Shown here one piece after another: positions 2,037-26,038 of a DNA stretch of 64,000 nt. Source of the DNA: Luteibaculum oceani. GTDB taxonomy: Bacteria; Bacteroidota; Bacteroidia; Flavobacteriales_D; Luteibaculaceae. Position 1 is the first letter of the stretch; each line of letters starts with the position of its first letter. Below the pieces are notes generated by a model. It did no database searches and was not told the origin of the DNA. It saw only the letters and a list, made by a program, of their open reading frames with translations. The position numbers were made by a program, and so were the translations under genes. The stretch is taken from NCBI RefSeq assembly GCF_007995015.1, contig NZ_VORB01000010.1, positions 62,001 to 126,000 on the forward strand, read 5' to 3'.

Positions 2037-2110
2037 GGTCGCGTAGCTCAGCTGGATAGAGCATCTGCCTTCTAAGCAGACGGTCGAAGGTTCGAATCCT
2101 TCCGCGATCA
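2037..2110 (+). tRNA. tRNA-Arg (anticodon TCT)
   Basis: Complete 74-nt cloverleaf: acceptor GGTCGCG/CGCGATC with one G.U pair, D-arm GCTC/GAGC, anticodon stem TCTGC/GCAGA with loop CTTCTAA (anticodon TCT), T-arm GAAGG-TTCGAAT-CCTTC, discriminator A. CCA is not encoded. It reads AGA codons. A strong terminator follows 8 nt later. Confidence 0.96.
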
Positions 2111-2117
2111 CTCTGAT

Positions 2118-2147
2118 AAGCAGCATTCATTTGGATGCTGCTTTTTT
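2118..2147 (+). terminator. Rho-independent terminator of tRNA-Arg
   Basis: Perfect 9-bp stem AAGCAGCAT/ATGCTGCTT (2118-2126 with 2135-2143), an 8-nt loop, then a run of T. The downstream repeat units begin with a sequence resembling this stem (CAAAAAAGCAGCA). Confidence 0.88.
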
Positions 2148-2187
2148 GTTTTAATAGCGCCAAAAGCTTGCTTTTGTAAGCGGTTAA

Positions 2188-2455
2188 AACAAAAAAGCAG
2201 CACATACGCCAAGCGGATGTATGCTGATTATCCATTGCACGTCGTTCGATAAAGGATCATGAAATAATCCTTACCCTTCAATACAGCCAAACAAAAAAGC
2301 AGCACATACGCCAAGCGGATGTATGCTGATTATCCATTACACGTCGTTCGATAAAGGATCATGAAATAATCCTTACCCATCAATACAGCCAAACAAAAAA
2401 ACCAAATCATACGCGAAGCGGATGTAAGCTGGTTATCCACTGCACGTCGTTCGAT
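2188..2455 (+). repeat. Structured 102-bp tandem repeat behind tRNA-Arg
   Basis: Units start at 2188 and 2290 (period 102 bp, only a few mismatches), followed by a third, diverged and truncated unit from about 2392. Each full unit contains two predicted hairpins in the tRNA sense. The first is ACAT-a-CGC-caa-GCG-g-ATGT (2202-2220, again at 2304-2322), with an internal A/G mismatch. The second is AAGGAT...ATCCTT (about 2252-2272), containing GGATCA and TAATCC. Unit 3 keeps the CGC/GCG core with loop gaa. There is no ORF or spacer structure. The same two hairpin types occur in the array behind tRNA-Ser (25510-25894). The stretch from 2456 to 2573 holds nothing else recognisable. Confidence 0.85.
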
Positions 2456-2573
2456 GAAGCTATGTCAGGTAGATTAAGCCATTTTCTTTGGCAGATTAAT
2501 TTTACAACTGCTTTAAACAAGCTTCTTCCCTTCAATAATTCTAATCTGAGTATCTTTCCCAAAAAGATAACGT

Positions 2574-15444: not shown

Positions 15445-18400
15445 TTGCTTCGACCAAAGCTCAAATATTATCTTGGAATTTCACTACTTAGTTTCCTGAT
15501 ACTTATCAGTTCCAAGCTAAATGCGCAGATTTGCGATTCCGAAGTACCTGTAATTGAGGTCGACCTAAGCTCTAACCCAGATACTTCATGGGTAGTGCCC
15601 GATTTAGAAAGAAAAGGCACCTGTTGCGATGCCGCCAAAAACGCACCATGCGTTGCATTTAATATTACCCTGCATCCAGAAGCTACTGGAATAAATTTTG
15701 GAGTTTGCGAAGGTGCGGAGCCATCGGGTTCTTTATATTACCAAATTAATTGTGGACCAAAAACTCCAGTCGGAGAGCCCATATGCTTAAATGGAGAAGG
15801 ACCACATCTATTAACCTTCTGTAAGCCTGGGAAAAACGAAAACACTTTTTGTATCCAGTCCATTCCTAGGCCATCAGTAGGAGATGATATTCAAATTCAG
15901 GAGGGTTGTAGTGGAGACCTATCAAGCTCTGGATATAAAGAAGATGAAATTACTTGGACCTCCGTTTTACCTGGAAATCGAGGTGATTTCGACTACCTAC
16001 TTAGCTGTATTACTTGTCCTAATCCTCAGGTAAATTTAACTGGAGTTATACCAGATTCACTGTATTTTGAAATATCAGGACCGGGAGCTGGAGATTGTGG
16101 TGACTTAAACACTTTTAGGGATACCGTTCTAGTTGTGGTTTTACCGGGCCCTCGGGTTAATATAGTTCAGGAAAACAAGGTTCTATGTTCCGAAACAGAG
16201 GAGTTACGATTAACTGCCGAGATCAATGGTGGAACTCCTCCTTATAATGTAAACTGGAGCACTGGAGCCGCTGGCAATAGTATTTTAGTGGGCCCTGGAA
16301 CCTATACAGTTTCCGTAAGCGATGCCAAAAATTGTGAGATTGTTACCGAAACTTATACCGTACTTCCTCCAAAGGAAATATCACTAAATCTAAGTTCAAC
16401 ACCTACATCTTGTAATGGAGGTAGCGATGGTTCTGCTACGGTTGTAATTTCTGGAGGGTACTCCCCTTATAGCATTTTATGGAATGATGCTCTAAACCAA
16501 CAAACTGCTACAGCAACGGAATTGGTTGCTGGCATTTACGAGGTATTAGTAACTGATTCGGCTGGTTGCCAAGTTTCAGCACAAATCGAAGTTACAGAAC
16601 CGGCCAATCCCCTTGAAATTACATCAACATCTATATCGGATGTCGATTGTTTTGGCGGCAACACAGGAAGCATAAGCATTAATGTTTCGGGAGGAACAAG
16701 CCCCTACAGTTACGAATGGAGTGGGATTTCGCATTCTGGCCCAAACCCCACAAACCTATCAGCTGGTTGGTACACAGTGGTTATTACGGATGCAAACGGG
16801 TGTACTCTTGAAGAAGCATTTCAAATCGAACAACCCGACTTCCCACTTGCTGGTGATTTAAACATCATGGATGTTCTGTGCAAGGGAGAAAATACGGGAG
16901 CTATTAATGCCAATTCCACCGGTGGCACGGATCCTTTCCGGTATAGATTAAACAATTCTGCTTGGCAAACAGACGGCACTTTCGAAAACCTGATCGCAGG
17001 AACATACACAATAGAAATTGAGGATGCCAACTCTTGTACTTTTGATACCGTAGTTACCATCTCAGAACCAGATCTTTTATCTGGAACAACACAGGGTTCA
17101 GCCCCAACCTGTTTCCAAGGTGCCGATGGTAAAATAACTGCTACCATCTCAGGAGGAACCACTCCCTATACTTTTCAATGGAACGATGGGCAAAATCAGA
17201 CCACAAATACCGCAATAAACCTTAGTGCTGGAGAATACCAACTAGTTGTTACCGATGCGAATGGATGTATTTTAATTCTAAACGAATCTTTAGAAGAACC
17301 CACTCCTATTACCATTTCCTTTATTAAGTCAGACATTGAATGTGAGGGCGAAAACACCGGCTGGGCTCAAGCCAATCCTTCTGGAGGAACATCCCCCTAT
17401 TCCTATTTATGGAACGACGCAAACAACCAGAAAACTAAAATTGCAAGTAATTTAATCGCCGGAACTTACAACGTTACAGTATTCGATGCCAATGGATGTG
17501 AGGGAACGGGTTCGGTAACGATTAATGGACCCGCAGAACCACTAAGAGCCGAGGTTGTCGCTAAAACCAATGTTGCTTGCCATGGGGAAGCAACTGGAGA
17601 AATCACCTTAAATGTTTATGGCGGTTCTCCTGGTTATACCATAAATTGGAATGACCCAAATACTCAAACAGGAAATAAGGCGAATAATTTAGTATCAGGA
17701 TATTACACCGCGACCATTACCGACCAAAATGGATGTGAAATTGTTATATCGGAGCTTATTTCCCAACCTGCATCTAAGGTGCTTCCCAAACTACAACTGA
17801 TTAAAAACCCTTCTTGTACGGGGAAAAATGACGGAAGTTTGTTGGCAGATGCAGAAGGCGGAGTCCCCCCCTATTCTTACCTGTGGTTGAACACTGGGAA
17901 TTCTAATCAAATTGAAAATAATGTAGGAGCCGGTTCTCATTCCGTGAGAATAACCGATGCCAATGGCTGCGACACCACCCTATCAATTGTTGTAAATGAC
18001 CCACCACCGCTAACCGTAAGTGCGCAAACACAACAAAATGTAAAATGCCATGGTGGCTCAAGCGGAATTGCTCTTGCTGAAGCTGCTGGGGGAACCCCAG
18101 GATATAATTACCAATGGAATGATCCAAACCAACAAACTGGCCCAACTGCATCCAACCTTACTGCTGGTACATACAAAGTAACTGCAACAGATAATGCGGG
18201 TTGTAGCGCTGAAGCTACCGTGGTTATTTCCGAACCTAATTCACCGGTAATTATTCAGTTAGTAGATATAAAACACAATGATTGTAAGGGGAACAACGAT
18301 GGATACATCGAGGTAACAGCCTTCGGTGGTACTGCGCCCTATTCCTTCCAATGGAACGATGTAAATAATTCTACCACCAAACGAATTGAAAACTTAAAAA

Positions 18401-21400
18401 CAGGCACATATACCGTAAGGGTAAAGGATGCTAATAATTGTCAGGTTTCGGCTTCGTACACGATAAACGAACCTCAAAACCCTCTTTTTTCGGATGTTAC
18501 AATTCTAAATCATATTGATTGTTTTGGTAATGCAAACGGTGCAGCTACCGCAAAGGCTTTTGGTGGTTCCCCCCCTTATCAATTATTTTGGTCTCCCTCT
18601 GGAATGACCACCGATACAGTCTACGGCTTAGGACCTGGAATCCATGAACTAAGTGTAGTTGATAAAAATGGATGCTCCTACAAAACCGAATTCGAAATCA
18701 GCCAGCCCAGCGCTCCACTTAATGGAATTGTAAATAAGATAAATGACGTAAAGTGTTTTGGAGGATCCGATGGAAGTTTAAGCGCTGAAATCTCGGGAGG
18801 AACACCACCCTACACCTATCAATGGGACGACAATAACAACCAAACGGGAAGTACCGCATTAAACTTGGCTCCAGGTACATACACCGTAGTTATTAAAGAT
18901 GACGCAGGATGTGAAATCCCTTTATCTGGAACTATAAATCAACCTCCAGCCCCTTTACAACTTAGCATAGACGTAGCGGCAGTAAAATGTAAGGATGGTA
19001 ATTCTGGAATAGCAACAGCCAACGTTACTGGAGGTACAGCCCCTTATATCTACCAGTGGGATGACCCTCAAAAACAACAAAGTGCAAATGCTATTGATCT
19101 AAAGGCGGGCAGCTACCAAGTAGTAGTTGTGGACTTTAATGGTTGCGAAGTTCGTGGAACAGCTGTAATCACTGAGCCTTCTGAAAAATTGAGTTTACAG
19201 TTATCACCCCAGTCACCTAGTTGTTCTAACTCGTCAGATGGACAAATTGTAGCCACCGTAAATGGAGGTGTTTCTCCATACACCTACCAATGGAATGACG
19301 CCAATAATCAAACCACAAGCACCGCTACGGGACTTGTTAAAGGTGCTTATCAGGTTACCGTGATTGATGCACAAGGCTGCGAAATTGTTGGTGCATCAAC
19401 GGTTGAGGCCCCAAATCCTTTGGAATTAAATATCAAGTATTCCGAAGTGGTTTGCGCAGGTAGCAACAATGGCCATGTTGAGGTGGAGGTAACAGGTGGA
19501 ACCCCTCCTTATATCTACAATTGGGATGATGAAAACGGAACAACAGGTTCTAGCGCTTCTGGTCTTCCACCTGGAACTTATCAAGTTCGAGTAACCGATA
19601 GCAAAGGTTGTTTTGAACAACAGGCGGTAACATTAAACTCCACGGTAGCAACTGAGATTAGACTTAAAACTGTGGACCCAACCTGCAATGGTATAGCAAA
19701 CGGTAGAATAGAAAGCGAAATTATTGGTGGATCTGACCCCTATAGCTATTCATGGAGCCCAGGTGGGGAGCAATCTAAAAACATAGTAAACAAAGGCCCT
19801 GGGAACTATGAGTTAACAGTAACCGACTTTAATGGATGTAAATACACCGCCTCAGCACAATTGGCTGAACCAAATGCAATGGTTCCTAATGTTGATTTAA
19901 CCCATGAGTCGTGCTTTAATAAATCCGATGGACAAATTCTGATAACGATAACTGGTGGTTCGGAGCCATTTAATTATGCCTGGTCAGACGACGCTTCAAG
20001 AACAACATCCTTTGCTCAAAATTTAGCTGCAGGAACTTATACCATCTCGGTAAGAGACCAAAATAATTGTACGCTCAACATTACAGATGATATAATTCCT
20101 GCAACGGAAATTAACATTGATATCACGCCTCAACACATTGCGTGTTTTGGAGATAACAACGGTGAGTTAGCTGCACAGGTAAGTGGCGGGGTCGCCCCCT
20201 ATAGCTATCAATGGAATGACCCAAACTCACAGACAGGAAATAAAGCTGTATTACTTGCGCCGGGTAATTACGAGCTAACAGTTTTAGATCAGAATTCTTG
20301 TGTTAAAAAAGCTAGTAAAGAAATTTCACAGCCTTTAGAGCCCTTAAAAGCAACCACACAAGTTAAAAACCTAAGCTGCTATGGAGATAATTCGGGATGG
20401 GCGGAGGTACTGGTTAAAGGTGGCACACCTCCCTACCTATACCTTTGGAACGACCCCAATAACCAGTCAGGCGCTAAAGCAACACAACTTACAGCGGGTA
20501 ATTACACGGTAAACATTACCGATGCTAATGGATGTAAACTGGTTAAATCGGTGGTAATAACCGAACCCAACTCTCCTCTAACCCTTTCTCTCTCTGGTAA
20601 TACCATCTCATGTAAAGGCGATAGTTCTGGAATAGCAAGCGCTGCCGTTAGTGGTGGTGTTAAGCCATACTCCTATTTATGGAATGACGAAAATGCTCAA
20701 ACAACTGCGGTGGCCACGAACCTCAAAAGTGGAAATTATGTGTGCCAAATAACTGATGCTGCCGGATGCACCATCTCTGGAAATATTTTTATTCAAGAGC
20801 CAGATGAATTTTTAAATGTTACCCATACCACTTCAGATGTTGACTGTTTTGGTGAAAATACTGGATCCGCATCACTCAATATTTCTGGCGGACTGGCTCC
20901 ATACGATATTTCGTGGAACGATCCTGAAAACCAGAATGGAATTACGGCTAGCAATTTATTGGCCGGTAATTATCTTGCTGAAATCACAGATCAAAACGGA
21001 TGTAGAATAAATGAGTTGGTGGAGATTAAGCAACCATTTAGTGCATTAAAATCCATTTTCACACCAATTGCACCTTCTTGTTATAATGGAAATGATGGAG
21101 AAATAACGGTAGAAGGAGTTGGCGGAACTGGTCCCTACAATTTTCAATGGAGTTTCCCTGTTTCATCAAACAGTCAAACTATTACTAACCTTGTTTCTGG
21201 TTCTTATACGGTTGAGTTAACCGATGCTAAAAACTGTAGTAGAGTCGACTCAATTTTCCTTAATAACCGCGATTCACTGTCTGTAAGCCTAATTTTAGAT
21301 CACGTTAAGTGTGGACAAGGAAATAATGGTAAAGCCATTGCTCAGGTGAACGGAGGAACCGCACCCTACCAGTATTTTTGGAATAGTGAAGCAGCTTCAA

Positions 21401-24400
21401 ACGAAGTAAGAAACGGTCTAAATTCTGGTAACCATACTATTAGGATAGAAGATGCTAACGGCTGTGTAAAGCAAAAATCTTTCGAAATAAAGGAGCCGCC
21501 AATTACGCTTAGAATTTCAGTACAAAGTAGAACAATTCGCTGTTTTGGCAGTAAAACAGGGAAAGCATGGGTAAATATTACAGGTGCATATCCACCCTAT
21601 AATATTACCTGGAGTGATCCACAACAACAAAAAACTGATACTGCCTTTGGACTTGCCGCGGGACCGTATAAAGTTATAGTTAGTGATAGATTTGGCTGTT
21701 TAGATTCAGCTCTGGTAACCATAACCGAACCAGAGAAACCTGTTTCCGCAGTCACCTCCTCGGTTGATGCAAAGTGTTTCAACGAAGCCAATGGTTCAGC
21801 CGCGGTTCAGGTAGACGGGGGAACACCTCCGTACCAATACCAATGGAATGATATTAACAAGCAAGTTTCACCGGTTGCTGATAATTTATTGCCTGGGGAA
21901 TACTTCGTTAAAATAAAGGATGACAATGGCTGCGAACTAATTGAAAAGGTAGAAGTTGGCGGACCAATTAGCCCGCTGCAAATTAGCTTCTTTAAAAAGG
22001 ATGTATCCTGTCTTGGAGGAAATGATGGCAGCGTATTGAGTTACGTAAAAGGAGGTACAAAACCATATAGCTACAAATGGGATGCTCCCGGAGAACCAAT
22101 CGACTCTGCATTAGAAAACCTTGCTGCTGGACAGTATAAATTAGTTGTTACGGACGCAAATGGATGTTCCACAAATGCCTCAATCAATATTAATCAACCT
22201 AGCCAAAAGCTAGAAATTGAAATAAAGCCAACACATAACAAGTGTTATGGAGATTCTCTTGGAACTGCAGAAGCTACTGTATCGGGTGGAATTGCACCTT
22301 ACCAATACTTATGGAACGATAGTAGAAACCAAAATTCAAGGCTAGCCAGTAGCTTACCCGTGGGGATTTACCAAGTGGAGGTTACAGACAGCAGGGGTTG
22401 TAGCTCATTTGAGGAGGTGGAAATTAAAGCACCAGGCTCCCCTATTGCCATTGTAACCAATTCTACCCCGGTAAGCTGTTTCGGATTTAACGATGGAAAG
22501 GTTGAGGCTCAGGTGAGTGGAGGAACTTCACCGTACGAGTACAGCTGGAACATTCCTTCGGGAAATGCAAGTGCACATGAAAATCTATTCGCTGGTAGAT
22601 ATTGGGTAAGGATTGTTGATGCTAACGGTTGCTTTAAAGTGGATACTGTGGAATTAACCCAGCCTTCTCCCCTTTCAGCAAACATTGATAAAGGCAACTT
22701 AACCTGCTATAATAGCAAGGATGGATTTATAAAGGTTTCTCCCATTGGCGGCACACCTAACTTCAGCTTCCTTTTGGATAATACCACCAGTTCTAATAGT
22801 GGGGAATTTTATAATCTCAATGCGGGGAATCACGCTGTAGTGGTAACTGATAAAAACAATTGCACCTACGAAAGAAGTATCCTGATCAACGAACCTGCTC
22901 CTATTGTGGCGGATACAGTAATCCAGGATGTTCAATGCTTTGGCCAAGAAAACGGTGGTGCTAGAATTCAGGTAATTTCGGGTGGAACCGAACCTTACAT
23001 GATAGGGTTTAACGGTGCTAACTTCGAAGATACTGCCATCTATAAGGTAAGTGCATTAGGACCTGGGAATTTCTTTTTCAGTATTTACGACGCAAACGAT
23101 TGCCCCTCTAAGGTGTTCTTTAATATCCAGGAACCAGGTCCACTAGACATAACGGCATCGGCTGATGATACCCTATGTGCTGGACAGTCCAGAACTATGG
23201 CTGTTGCCCTTAGTGGTGGTACAGGTTCATTAAAAGCACATTGGAACCACAATTTAGGAAATGGCTATAACCAGGTTGTTAATCCCGATACTACAACTAA
23301 ATATCGCGTGTACGGAACAGACGCCAACAATTGTTACAGTGGAATTAAAGAGATCACCCTCTTTGTGCGCAATGCGGCGAAAGAATCGGTAAATATTGTA
23401 GCACCCGATACGCTTTGTACCGATGTTCCTTTTACGATTTATGGTACTCATGAATCAACAGTTGGCCCTTATGAGTTTATTTGGTCTCCAGATTTAGGAA
23501 ATGATTTAGGCCCTTACTCCCATTCTATTGATGCTAATACAGAATTTGAACTTAAAATTGTAAACGCTTGTCTGGATACCATTTCTGCAAACAAACTTGT
23601 AAGAACCACGCCGTCACCCAAATTATTTCTGCCAGATACCATTGCTCAAGACTGTGCTCCACTAGAAATAGTATTGGTAGATACAGTAAATAAAAACTCA
23701 GCCTACTTAAATTATACCTGGACGCTAGAAAGTGGAGAGATGTACAATACCAACCCTTTCCGTTATCAGTTTGATAATCCTGGAGAGTACGAATTGGATT
23801 TAACCATTAGTTCTGCCTATGGTTGTAACACCAAGGCTTCACAACCCTACAAGATATTTGTTAAACCCAGCCCCATAGCAAATGCAAGTTCAGATAAAAT
23901 TAGCACGAGCTTACTTGATCCTAAAATTCAGTTCTTCAACCTATCATCCGGTTATACTTCCTTTATTTGGGACCTACCCAACGGTAACTCAAGCCAAGAA
24001 AACAACCCCGTTGTAACCTTCGCCGATACTGGAAACTATATAGTAAACTTGGGCGTACTCAACCAATTTGGATGTTTCGATGAATTCCAAATAACGGTAA
24101 GAGTAAATCCATATGTAAGCTTTAAAGTACCCACGGCATTTACTCCAAACACACAGGGAGGAAATGGCGGATACTACAATAAAAATGATTTAAACAACGA
24201 TGTTTTCCACCCAACAGCAGATTTCGTAAACAACTTCAATATGAAGATTTTTAATCGCTGGGGAGAATTGGTGTTCGAATCCAACGATATTCACAGAGGT
24301 TGGGATGGATATTACAAGGGAAAACTTTCGCAGCAAGATGTTTACATCTGGAAAATAACGGCTGGCTTTGTCACCGGAGAGGTAATTGAAGAATCTGGAA

Positions 24401-24423
24401 ATGTAACCCTGATATGGAAGTAG
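15445..24423 (+). CDS. Giant SprB-repeat adhesin with gliding-associated C-terminal domain
   Basis: 2992 residues. The start is TTG, followed by a signal peptide (residues 1-27, ending KLNAQ). After an N-terminal cysteine-rich region (to about 240), roughly 30 repeats of about 75-80 residues follow. Each carries a GGT-PY-x-Y-x-WND core, a later AGTY-x-V-x-V-x-DxNGC and a closing EP. This is the SprB-repeat signature of the mobile surface adhesin of gliding Bacteroidota. Ig/PKD-like domains occupy about 2560-2890 and a CHU_C gliding-associated C-terminal domain closes the protein (FKVPTAFTPNTQGGNG... FNRWGELVFES). It should be exported by the type IX system. The 3' end overlaps the PorP/SprF gene by 10 bp. 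Confidence 0.93.
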   Translation: MLRPKLKYYLGISLLSFLILISSKLNAQICDSEVPVIEVDLSSNPDTSWVVPDLERKGTCCDAAKNAPCVAFNITLHPEATGINFGVCEGAEPSGSLYYQINCGPKTPVGEPICLNGEGPHLLTFCKPGKNENTFCIQSIPRPSVGDDIQIQEGCSGDLSSSGYKEDEITWTSVLPGNRGDFDYLLSCITCPNPQVNLTGVIPDSLYFEISGPGAGDCGDLNTFRDTVLVVVLPGPRVNIVQENKVLCSETEELRLTAEINGGTPPYNVNWSTGAAGNSILVGPGTYTVSVSDAKNCEIVTETYTVLPPKEISLNLSSTPTSCNGGSDGSATVVISGGYSPYSILWNDALNQQTATATELVAGIYEVLVTDSAGCQVSAQIEVTEPANPLEITSTSISDVDCFGGNTGSISINVSGGTSPYSYEWSGISHSGPNPTNLSAGWYTVVITDANGCTLEEAFQIEQPDFPLAGDLNIMDVLCKGENTGAINANSTGGTDPFRYRLNNSAWQTDGTFENLIAGTYTIEIEDANSCTFDTVVTISEPDLLSGTTQGSAPTCFQGADGKITATISGGTTPYTFQWNDGQNQTTNTAINLSAGEYQLVVTDANGCILILNESLEEPTPITISFIKSDIECEGENTGWAQANPSGGTSPYSYLWNDANNQKTKIASNLIAGTYNVTVFDANGCEGTGSVTINGPAEPLRAEVVAKTNVACHGEATGEITLNVYGGSPGYTINWNDPNTQTGNKANNLVSGYYTATITDQNGCEIVISELISQPASKVLPKLQLIKNPSCTGKNDGSLLADAEGGVPPYSYLWLNTGNSNQIENNVGAGSHSVRITDANGCDTTLSIVVNDPPPLTVSAQTQQNVKCHGGSSGIALAEAAGGTPGYNYQWNDPNQQTGPTASNLTAGTYKVTATDNAGCSAEATVVISEPNSPVIIQLVDIKHNDCKGNNDGYIEVTAFGGTAPYSFQWNDVNNSTTKRIENLKTGTYTVRVKDANNCQVSASYTINEPQNPLFSDVTILNHIDCFGNANGAATAKAFGGSPPYQLFWSPSGMTTDTVYGLGPGIHELSVVDKNGCSYKTEFEISQPSAPLNGIVNKINDVKCFGGSDGSLSAEISGGTPPYTYQWDDNNNQTGSTALNLAPGTYTVVIKDDAGCEIPLSGTINQPPAPLQLSIDVAAVKCKDGNSGIATANVTGGTAPYIYQWDDPQKQQSANAIDLKAGSYQVVVVDFNGCEVRGTAVITEPSEKLSLQLSPQSPSCSNSSDGQIVATVNGGVSPYTYQWNDANNQTTSTATGLVKGAYQVTVIDAQGCEIVGASTVEAPNPLELNIKYSEVVCAGSNNGHVEVEVTGGTPPYIYNWDDENGTTGSSASGLPPGTYQVRVTDSKGCFEQQAVTLNSTVATEIRLKTVDPTCNGIANGRIESEIIGGSDPYSYSWSPGGEQSKNIVNKGPGNYELTVTDFNGCKYTASAQLAEPNAMVPNVDLTHESCFNKSDGQILITITGGSEPFNYAWSDDASRTTSFAQNLAAGTYTISVRDQNNCTLNITDDIIPATEINIDITPQHIACFGDNNGELAAQVSGGVAPYSYQWNDPNSQTGNKAVLLAPGNYELTVLDQNSCVKKASKEISQPLEPLKATTQVKNLSCYGDNSGWAEVLVKGGTPPYLYLWNDPNNQSGAKATQLTAGNYTVNITDANGCKLVKSVVITEPNSPLTLSLSGNTISCKGDSSGIASAAVSGGVKPYSYLWNDENAQTTAVATNLKSGNYVCQITDAAGCTISGNIFIQEPDEFLNVTHTTSDVDCFGENTGSASLNISGGLAPYDISWNDPENQNGITASNLLAGNYLAEITDQNGCRINELVEIKQPFSALKSIFTPIAPSCYNGNDGEITVEGVGGTGPYNFQWSFPVSSNSQTITNLVSGSYTVELTDAKNCSRVDSIFLNNRDSLSVSLILDHVKCGQGNNGKAIAQVNGGTAPYQYFWNSEAASNEVRNGLNSGNHTIRIEDANGCVKQKSFEIKEPPITLRISVQSRTIRCFGSKTGKAWVNITGAYPPYNITWSDPQQQKTDTAFGLAAGPYKVIVSDRFGCLDSALVTITEPEKPVSAVTSSVDAKCFNEANGSAAVQVDGGTPPYQYQWNDINKQVSPVADNLLPGEYFVKIKDDNGCELIEKVEVGGPISPLQISFFKKDVSCLGGNDGSVLSYVKGGTKPYSYKWDAPGEPIDSALENLAAGQYKLVVTDANGCSTNASININQPSQKLEIEIKPTHNKCYGDSLGTAEATVSGGIAPYQYLWNDSRNQNSRLASSLPVGIYQVEVTDSRGCSSFEEVEIKAPGSPIAIVTNSTPVSCFGFNDGKVEAQVSGGTSPYEYSWNIPSGNASAHENLFAGRYWVRIVDANGCFKVDTVELTQPSPLSANIDKGNLTCYNSKDGFIKVSPIGGTPNFSFLLDNTTSSNSGEFYNLNAGNHAVVVTDKNNCTYERSILINEPAPIVADTVIQDVQCFGQENGGARIQVISGGTEPYMIGFNGANFEDTAIYKVSALGPGNFFFSIYDANDCPSKVFFNIQEPGPLDITASADDTLCAGQSRTMAVALSGGTGSLKAHWNHNLGNGYNQVVNPDTTTKYRVYGTDANNCYSGIKEITLFVRNAAKESVNIVAPDTLCTDVPFTIYGTHESTVGPYEFIWSPDLGNDLGPYSHSIDANTEFELKIVNACLDTISANKLVRTTPSPKLFLPDTIAQDCAPLEIVLVDTVNKNSAYLNYTWTLESGEMYNTNPFRYQFDNPGEYELDLTISSAYGCNTKASQPYKIFVKPSPIANASSDKISTSLLDPKIQFFNLSSGYTSFIWDLPNGNSSQENNPVVTFADTGNYIVNLGVLNQFGCFDEFQITVRVNPYVSFKVPTAFTPNTQGGNGGYYNKNDLNNDVFHPTADFVNNFNMKIFNRWGELVFESNDIHRGWDGYYKGKLSQQDVYIWKITAGFVTGEVIEESGNVTLIWK

Positions 24424-25491: not shown

Positions 25492-25509
25492 AAGCTAATT
25501 AGCCAAAGC

Positions 25510-25894
25510 GATTACTCGGCTTCGCCTCGTGATCCCAAGGGCGGTAGCTTCAGAAAAAGGCAGTCCACTTTCGTGTCCTTGCTTTTTTGCTTTCACGAAA
25601 ACCCTCAAGCCTGCGGCAGTCTGCCTATTAGCCACAGGGATTACTCGGCTCCGCCTCGTGATCCCTAGAGGTGGGTGCTTCAGAAAAAGGCAGTCCACTT
25701 TCGTGTCCTTGCTTTTTTGCTTTCACGAAAACCCTCAAGCCTGCGGCAATCTGCCTATTAACTAATCACTTAATCACCATAAGGATTACTCGGCTCCGCC
25801 TCGTGATCCCTTAGGGGGAGCTTCAGAAAAAGGCAGTCCGCTATCGCGTACTTGCTTTTTTGCTTTCACGAAAACCCTCAAGCCTGCGGCTTGG
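25510..25894 (-). repeat. Structured tandem repeat array behind tRNA-Ser (three units)
   Basis: Units begin at 25510, 25639 and 25794 on the plus strand; the second has a 26-bp insertion before the third. In the tRNA-Ser sense (minus strand) each contains a core hairpin: AGTaCGC-gata-GCGgACT in the tRNA-proximal unit (25835-25852) and AGGaCAC-gaaa-GTGgACT in the two distal ones (25562-25579, 25692-25709). The CGC/GCG to CAC/GTG change is compensatory. A second hairpin is GGATCAC-GA-GGC-loop-GCC-GA-GTAATCC with tandem G/A mismatches. A third is GCC-gca-GGC, extended to AAGCC/GGCTT in the proximal unit. Short translated ORFs here are artefacts of the repeats. Confidence 0.85.
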
Positions 25895-25911
25895 GATTTT
25901 CTTAGAAAGCA

Positions 25912-25947
25912 AAAAAGGCAGTAAAACTTTCGTTTTACTGCCTTTTT
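25912..25947 (-). terminator. Terminator of tRNA-Ser
   Basis: Perfect 16-bp inverted repeat AAAAAGGCAGTAAAAC with GTTTTACTGCCTTTTT, loop of 4 nt. Read on the minus strand it ends in a U-tract just downstream of tRNA-Ser. The adjacent repeat units contain a partial copy of it (GACTGCCTTTTTCTG). Confidence 0.9.
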
Positions 25948-25950
25948 CTG

Positions 25951-26038
<88 letters not shown>

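Follow-up and report, generated by a model that had tools for sequence, protein, structure and literature searches.

Palindromic repeats at tRNA 3′ ends in Luteibaculum oceani and scattered Bacteroidota, containing inverted copies of the local tRNA end

The rtT/tyrT repeats of Escherichia coli (Rfam RtT) are tandem repeats that lie directly 3′ of a tRNA gene and include a portion of its 3′ end. The repeats described here resemble them in being tandem, in lying at the tRNA 3′ end and in holding part of that end; however, rtT/tyrT is one enterobacterial locus with direct copies only, whereas the present repeats occur at many tRNA genes and contain inverted copies and hairpin turns. It has also been reported that template switching creates reverse-complement repeats in other settings (PMC8794818). 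A literature search, in which subscription journals were largely beyond reach, found no description of repeats such as these, and their motif strings match only unrelated primers or sequences there; the rtT covariance model gave no match and Rfam reported nothing beyond the tRNAs on both arrays. The repeat family thus provisionally matches no described one, as the first-pass annotation of this DNA had supposed.

The window, that is, the whole stretch of 64,000 nt that was analysed (C10:62001–126000), belongs to a genome of 2.92 Mb in 42 contigs and contains two tandem arrays, both located by TRF and each directly 3′ of its own tRNA gene, on the plus strand for Arg and on the minus strand for Ser (Table 1). 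The arrays have a common architecture, A–L1 hairpin–A′–L2 hairpin–A″ in tandem repeats, and no alignable sequence, a direct DNA search with either one missing the other. A comprises the tRNA 3′ end (T-stem 3′ strand and acceptor strand) and the trailer with its terminator, X; A′ is A inverted, running back to the T-arm and including the inverted trailer X′; and A″ is the start of A again. L1 is a small palindrome between the trailer and the inverted copy, while L2, of the form GGAT-hairpin-AATCC, lies behind the copy at the T-loop position. Immediately upstream of tRNA-Arg(tct), at 1944–2036 of the window, there is a degenerate tRNA copy with a duplicated leader, an anticodon arm CCCGC-TTTTTCT-GCGGG and a broken T-arm; an ORF of 2992 aa (15445–24423) precedes the gene adjoining the Ser array.

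Table 1. Coordinates of the arrays, their host genes and their parts (window positions unless a contig is named).
Feature	Position	Strand	Remarks
tRNA-Arg(tct)	2037..2111	+	host gene of Arg array (array 1)
Arg tandem array	2187..2459	+	2.7 units x 102 bp (TRF)
A/X of Arg array	2112..2160	+	trailer and intrinsic terminator; hairpin about 2119-2147
L1 hairpin of Arg array	2161..2180	+	exact phylum-wide 20-mer CAAAAGCTTGCTTTTGTAAG
A′/X′ of Arg unit 1	2183..2232	+	Arg terminator and flank, inverted
Inner hairpin in A′/X′ of Arg unit 1	2203-2219	+	CATACGC-CAA-GCGGATG
L2 module of Arg unit 1	2252..2272	+	AAGGAT-CATGAAATA-ATCCTT; T-stem copy, hairpin in loop
tRNA-Ser(gct)	25949..26038	-	host gene of Ser array (array 2)
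Whole Ser tandem array	25498..25890	-	2.9 units x ~130 bp (TRF)
A/X of Ser array	25909..25948	-	terminator GAAAAAGGCAGTAAAAC-GAAA-GTTTTACTGCCTTTTTT, begins at tRNA 3′ end
L1 equivalent of Ser array	25879..25893	-	CAAGCC-GCA-GGCTTG
A′/X′ of Ser unit 1	25819..25878	-	inner hairpin TACGC-GATA-GCGGA at 25837-25850
L2 module of Ser unit 1	25783..25810	-	GGGATC-ACGAGGC-GGA-GCCGAGT-AATCC
Ser unit 2	25637..25732	-	inner hairpin 25694-25708 (GGACAC-GAAA-GTGGA); L2 module 25637-25666
Ser unit 3	25508..25602	-	inner hairpin 25564-25578; L2 module 25508-25537
Split Y1 match	C1:154239-154528 (L193:2239-2528)

When each tRNA's terminator is reverse-complemented, it matches the hairpins of the repeats, both flanks included. 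The Ser sequence GGGATTTTCTTAGAAAGCAAAAAAGGCAGT...ACTGCCTTTTTCTG is matched by GGGTTTTCGTGAAAGCAAAAAAGCAAG...GGACTGCCTTTTTCTG in the unit, and the Arg sequence ATTAAAACAAAAAAGCAGCAT by TTAAAACAAAAAAGCAGCAC; the T-stem 3′ strand of tRNA-Arg(tct), AATCCTT, is likewise copied within the Arg units. Each array therefore holds its local trailer in inverted form up to the tRNA 3′ end, and its stems are locus-specific because they derive from the trailer and T-stem of its own tRNA. This bears on an observation of the first-pass annotation, namely that both arrays, read in the tRNA sense, contain CAAAAAAGCA, ACGC-loop-AGCGGA and GGATCA..TAATCC in the same order; the order is present, and CAAAAAAGCA recurs while the rest differs because the arms copy the neighbouring tRNA's terminator in reverse. 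The two hairpin modules proposed to be shared are also present, and are by nature parts of A′ and L2. Similarly, the tandem G·A mismatches noted in the second hairpin are there (CGAGGC-GGA-GCCGAG), and the change from CGC/GCG to CAC/GTG in the Ser array is real but counts as one event only, since units 2 and 3 are 96% identical. Folded against shuffles, single Arg and Ser units did no better (z −0.2 to −1.2); a unit of the third array described below gave z −3.3.

When 420 nt behind every tRNA gene of the genome were read, the plan was found at 6 of about 38 genes (Arg-TCT, Ser-GCT, Ser-TGA, His-GTG, Arg-ACG and Leu-GAG). In an own-genome DNA search, the Arg array found itself only, and the Ser array found itself and a third, Ser-like array that opens contig 11. 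The latter continues the tRNA-Ser(TGA) array ending contig 9: an insertion sequence flanked by an 8-bp target duplication, AGCATTTT, bridges these contigs and so places the third array behind tRNA-Ser(TGA). This insertion sequence (L012:1–325 and the end of L072) has a weak ISL3-type zinc-ribbon match, and the same end turns up again where contig 9 begins, behind tRNA-Lys(ttt). The motif AAAGCTTGCTTT has five copies in the genome, four in arrays and one in coding-like sequence without a nearby tRNA. Inverted-copy scores of 32–40 were obtained for 6 of 22 tRNA terminators (38 for the Arg terminator of the window), compared with at most 22 for 63 control terminators, and the probability of 6/22 versus 0/63 is about 2e-4 by a simple hypergeometric count. 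The high-scoring six comprise five element loci and tRNA-Asn. Behind this tRNA-Asn(gtt) (L051, C1:422931), a direct second copy of the tRNA 3′ end and terminator lies about 150 nt downstream and resembles an attachment-site remnant.

Local copying also appears in comparisons between loci. The reverse complement of X scored a median of 28 against X′, as opposed to 14 when the loci were mismatched and 15 when X was compared in direct orientation. The right arm of L2 agreed with the T-stem 3′ strand of its own tRNA at a mean of 5.98 versus 4.87 ± 0.15 in 5000 permutations; this was measured by a prefix test with permutation, a best-match 10-mer version being too noisy, and L2 was located by anchored extraction, detection by thermodynamic folding being unreliable. 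The inverted acceptor strand in A′ gave z 3.3 and the direct one in A″ z 4.7; L130 has the full 17 nt of the tRNA end, and the displaced end in L118 is equally complete. In tRNA operons without a terminator (Winogradskyella L181; L278), X′ copies the spacer, so that X′ copies whatever comes after the tRNA. On these comparisons, inverted copying of the local tRNA end is well supported. Downstream of L2 in L175 and L158, there are more inverted tRNA 3′ ends (CGGAGGGGACGAGA; GCGGAGGATGAGGGAT), as if the zigzag continued. In L225, the 3′ end and terminator of tRNA-Ser(tga) are duplicated behind the gene in direct orientation; there is a T-loop insertion and no L1, and a related process may be at work. 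In genus g8, loci such as L103 and L107 have long ATGTGCTAATGTGCCAAT runs and GAGC-TAA-GCGA hairpins past the arrays.

The exact 20-mer CAAAAGCTTGCTTTTGTAAG was scanned in 85,000 species genomes of a bacterial and archaeal collection and found in 79 stretches, or 78 distinct sites once duplicates were dropped. Within 110 nt of an ARAGORN-called tRNA lie 58 of the 78, mostly at 42–68 nt, and the tRNAs concerned include 17 named anticodon types; on reading, the others proved to be truncated tRNA ends, later array units and one 16S rRNA match, which is repeated in Sutcliffiella. Apart from this 16S match, every L1 site lies behind a tRNA 3′ end or in a later unit of such an array, and the carriers are Bacteroidota (one misnamed MAG being counted here) and one Lactococcus. 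In a large tRNA cluster of the termite-derived Lactococcus reticulitermitis (L140:828–900), an exact L1 accompanied by a short inverted copy of the spacer lies 17 nt behind tRNA-Arg(acg); this is the only case outside the Bacteroidota and possibly reflects horizontal transfer. With at most one mismatch, AAAAGCTTGCTTTTGTAA occurred in 39 of 399 genomes of the order, mostly within one genus, where it mostly lies about 50 nt behind tRNA-Ser TGA or GGA; the misnamed MAG belongs to this genus. Exact L1 is rare across the phylum, being found in 4 of 395 genomes of a fresh sample in which a control pattern gave 0; both newly read loci of this sample follow a tRNA. In one complete Flavobacterium genome, a single tRNA terminator scored above control, so the architecture is not universal. 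An RNA model (R1) gave only chance matches in coding-like sequence in 60 relatives of the order, and a contig pattern search using Ser-type flanks gave no match, since the flanks are locus-specific. Among the viral carriers searched, only one provirus end has the element: this provirus-like IMG/VR contig (L226:10380–10850) carries a tRNA 3′ half and then an element with a long L2 hairpin, whose right arm, AATCCTGC, copies the T-stem of that tRNA. The first-pass annotation had envisaged a structured repeat family that is dispersed and bound to tRNA 3′ ends; the six tRNAs here and the L1 sites of the collection bear this out, and further copies exist both at other tRNA genes and in relatives. 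Its observation is confirmed as real and larger than first described, while its interpretation as a whole is partly supported.

The hairpins are strand-specific. Behind L1, the tRNA-sense strand has 39 c(G..A)g loops (30 GNA triloops, 7 GNYA and 2 GNRA) and no c(T..C)g loop, versus 2.25 and 0.35 in shuffles. Simple inverted copying would turn G..A loops into T..C loops, so the loops have been remade to suit the tRNA-sense strand; in X′, a new GNA/GNNA hairpin takes the place of the inverted terminator loop. New loops of this type on that strand imply that selection or an enzyme acts on it. C-G-closed GNA and GNYA loops are exceptionally stable in DNA, while RNA favours GNRA; the loop class points to single-stranded DNA, although it falls short of proof.

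The best explanation is a non-autonomous palindromic family anchored to tRNA 3′ ends that arose from fold-back (template-switch) copying at DNA hairpins, for and against which the chances appear evenly balanced. Each copy would be built from local DNA: a polymerase would turn at L1, copy back to the T-arm palindrome, turn again and run forward, which would leave the order A–L1–A′–L2–A″ behind, and tandem arrays would result from copying round a dumbbell that has L1 and L2 as its closed ends. L1, near-identical across the phylum, may be the spreading or nucleating part; later growth and shrinkage of arrays would occur by recombination between units, and no host function would be needed. The sequences themselves show the inverted and direct copies of each tRNA end at its own locus, the constant position at the tRNA, the strand-specific loops and the patchy presence; we infer the fold-back origin, with its polymerase and its timing, and likewise the spread of L1. 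What stands against the explanation is that distant genomes have the same L1 whereas everything else is local; template switching by itself leaves the spread of L1 unexplained, so that some recognition or transfer is needed. The remade inner loop of X′ also weighs against it, and no clean empty/filled pair was found, the loci of genus g8 without the element having unrelated trailers. A more tentative possibility is a tRNA-bound element that has a small dumbbell or hairpin DNA as its propagating form and remakes its arms from each tRNA locus entered; just as tentatively, the two conserved hairpins would then be the turning points, and copying round them would lay down the arrays.

The main rival to fold-back copying is a recombinase acting at the T-loop. 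tRNA genes might receive a mobile mini-element through a site-specific recombinase working in trans or through an HUH enzyme acting on single-stranded L1/L2, which is somewhat unlikely, as is the associated proposal that A″ is the displaced target or a target duplication. L2 is located exactly in the T-loop, a usual crossover site of tRNA integrases, and the displaced full tRNA 3′ ends of L118 and L130, the provirus end with its element behind a displaced tRNA half, the horizontal transfer suggested by the Lactococcus copy and the single-strand-specific loops would all suit such an enzyme. However, the insertion of a fixed element leaves the copying of the local trailer in A′ unexplained; the neighbourhoods of the elements (2.5–3.5 kb) share no common mobility gene, only syntenic housekeeping genes recurring there, and Y1 genes show no association with them in 24 genomes. 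Inspection of L1 and L2 by eye for the integron attC boxes GTTRRRY/RYYYAAC found none.

It is unlikely that the repeats are a functional structured RNA or a barrier, in the form of back-to-back terminators or hairpins against antisense transcription or of a read-through regulatory RNA. X′ does read as an opposite-strand terminator, the hairpins are strand-specific, and the inner arms of L2 covary, with 4.16 of 6 pairs versus 2.67 ± 0.23, above all 5000 permutations, so that the covariation suggested by the first-pass annotation has statistical backing; but template switching mimics covariation too. Orthologous tRNA-Ser(tga) loci were compared with a divergent thioesterase gene as anchor: of the 18 with a readable tRNA, 8 carry the element, 9 have plain unrelated trailers and 1 has an unrelated duplication of the tRNA end. 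Unit number there ranges from a collapsed L1 alone (L199) to two or more (L196, L197), and in L200 and L202 the trailer X is altered while X′ keeps the old form. This patchiness, the variation in units and the divergence of X and X′ fit decaying copies rather than co-maintained pairs, and they weigh against a conserved RNA or barrier, as do the occurrence of X′ in tRNA operons without a terminator and the absence of the element from most tRNAs of each genome. An RNA acting after tRNA transcription, which had also been proposed, is made less likely by the position of the arrays beyond the tRNA terminator, by their patchiness and by the DNA-type loop class.

The earlier suggestion of REP-like elements mobilised in trans by TnpA_REP found no support. 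REP/BIME elements mobilised by TnpA_REP (RAYT), or untagged or CGTC-tagged REPs, are very unlikely to account for the repeats: the hairpins are mismatched and a CGTC stands before many L1s, as in CGTC-REPs, but the elements are not dispersed away from tRNAs. No GTAG/GTGG tag stands at the hairpin foot, GTC/CGTC preceding L1 and GATC preceding L2; the genome's sole Y1 transposase match is broken between two reading frames and has no similar hairpins beside it; and in the best-sampled genus, Y1 genes occur in 6 of 12 genomes with the element versus 5 of 12 without it. With neither a tag nor an intact Y1 gene, and with no co-occurrence in these 24 genomes, the RAYT link was rejected, and a Y1/RAYT enzyme is unlikely to be the agent. 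Convergence, whereby unrelated tandem terminator repeats would look alike through A-tracts and GC stems, is scarcely credible: CAAAAAAGCA by itself is terminator-like in direct reading, but own-locus copying of trailer and T-stem, an exact 20-mer at tRNA ends phylum-wide and 0 of 63 control terminators refute it for the architecture as a whole.

The repeats represent recurrent, rule-bound backward and forward copying of tRNA gene ends in scattered genomes across one phylum. They offer a natural system for testing hairpin-driven template switching in bacteria or, alternatively, a route to an enzyme acting on single-stranded hairpins. They also account for an assembly break in this genome, and they call for caution in that covariation in tRNA-adjacent repeats can stem from copying instead of selection on RNA.

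Several known systems share single features with the repeats. Like REP/BIME elements with RAYT, they are short imperfect intergenic hairpins in arrays; unlike them, they are fixed to tRNA 3′ ends, take their stems from the local tRNA locus and have no GTAG tag or RAYT link. The CGTC-tagged REPs, reported in Bacteroidetes (Di Nocera 2013, PMC3733652), are similar in that CGTC often stands before L1 (many L1s, not all), the stem opens with A-T pairs and no transposase is linked; however, a CGTC-tagged REP has an 8–9 bp stem, a 4–5 nt loop and a CCA tail, whereas L1 has a 7-bp stem with a 2-nt loop (or 5 bp with CTTG) and no CCA tail, and the element here is tRNA-bound and part of a larger zigzag. 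Archaeal palindromes behind tRNA genes likewise keep a fixed distance behind many tRNA genes, but they consist of an 18-bp motif with no tRNA-end copying and no arrays. With integrative elements in tRNA 3′ ends and their att duplications, the repeats share a tRNA 3′ end copied directly from the T-loop onwards, which forms a far-side direct repeat (the whole acceptor strand in L118 and L130, the T-stem in general); they differ in the inverted trailer copy, in the hairpin in the T-loop and in having no integrase or cargo seen alongside. Finally, as in template-switch mutations and quasipalindromes (PMC8794818, PMC7202029), inverted copies lie beside hairpins; such mutations are sporadic, whereas here the architecture is recurrent and L1 is conserved, at tRNA genes throughout the phylum.
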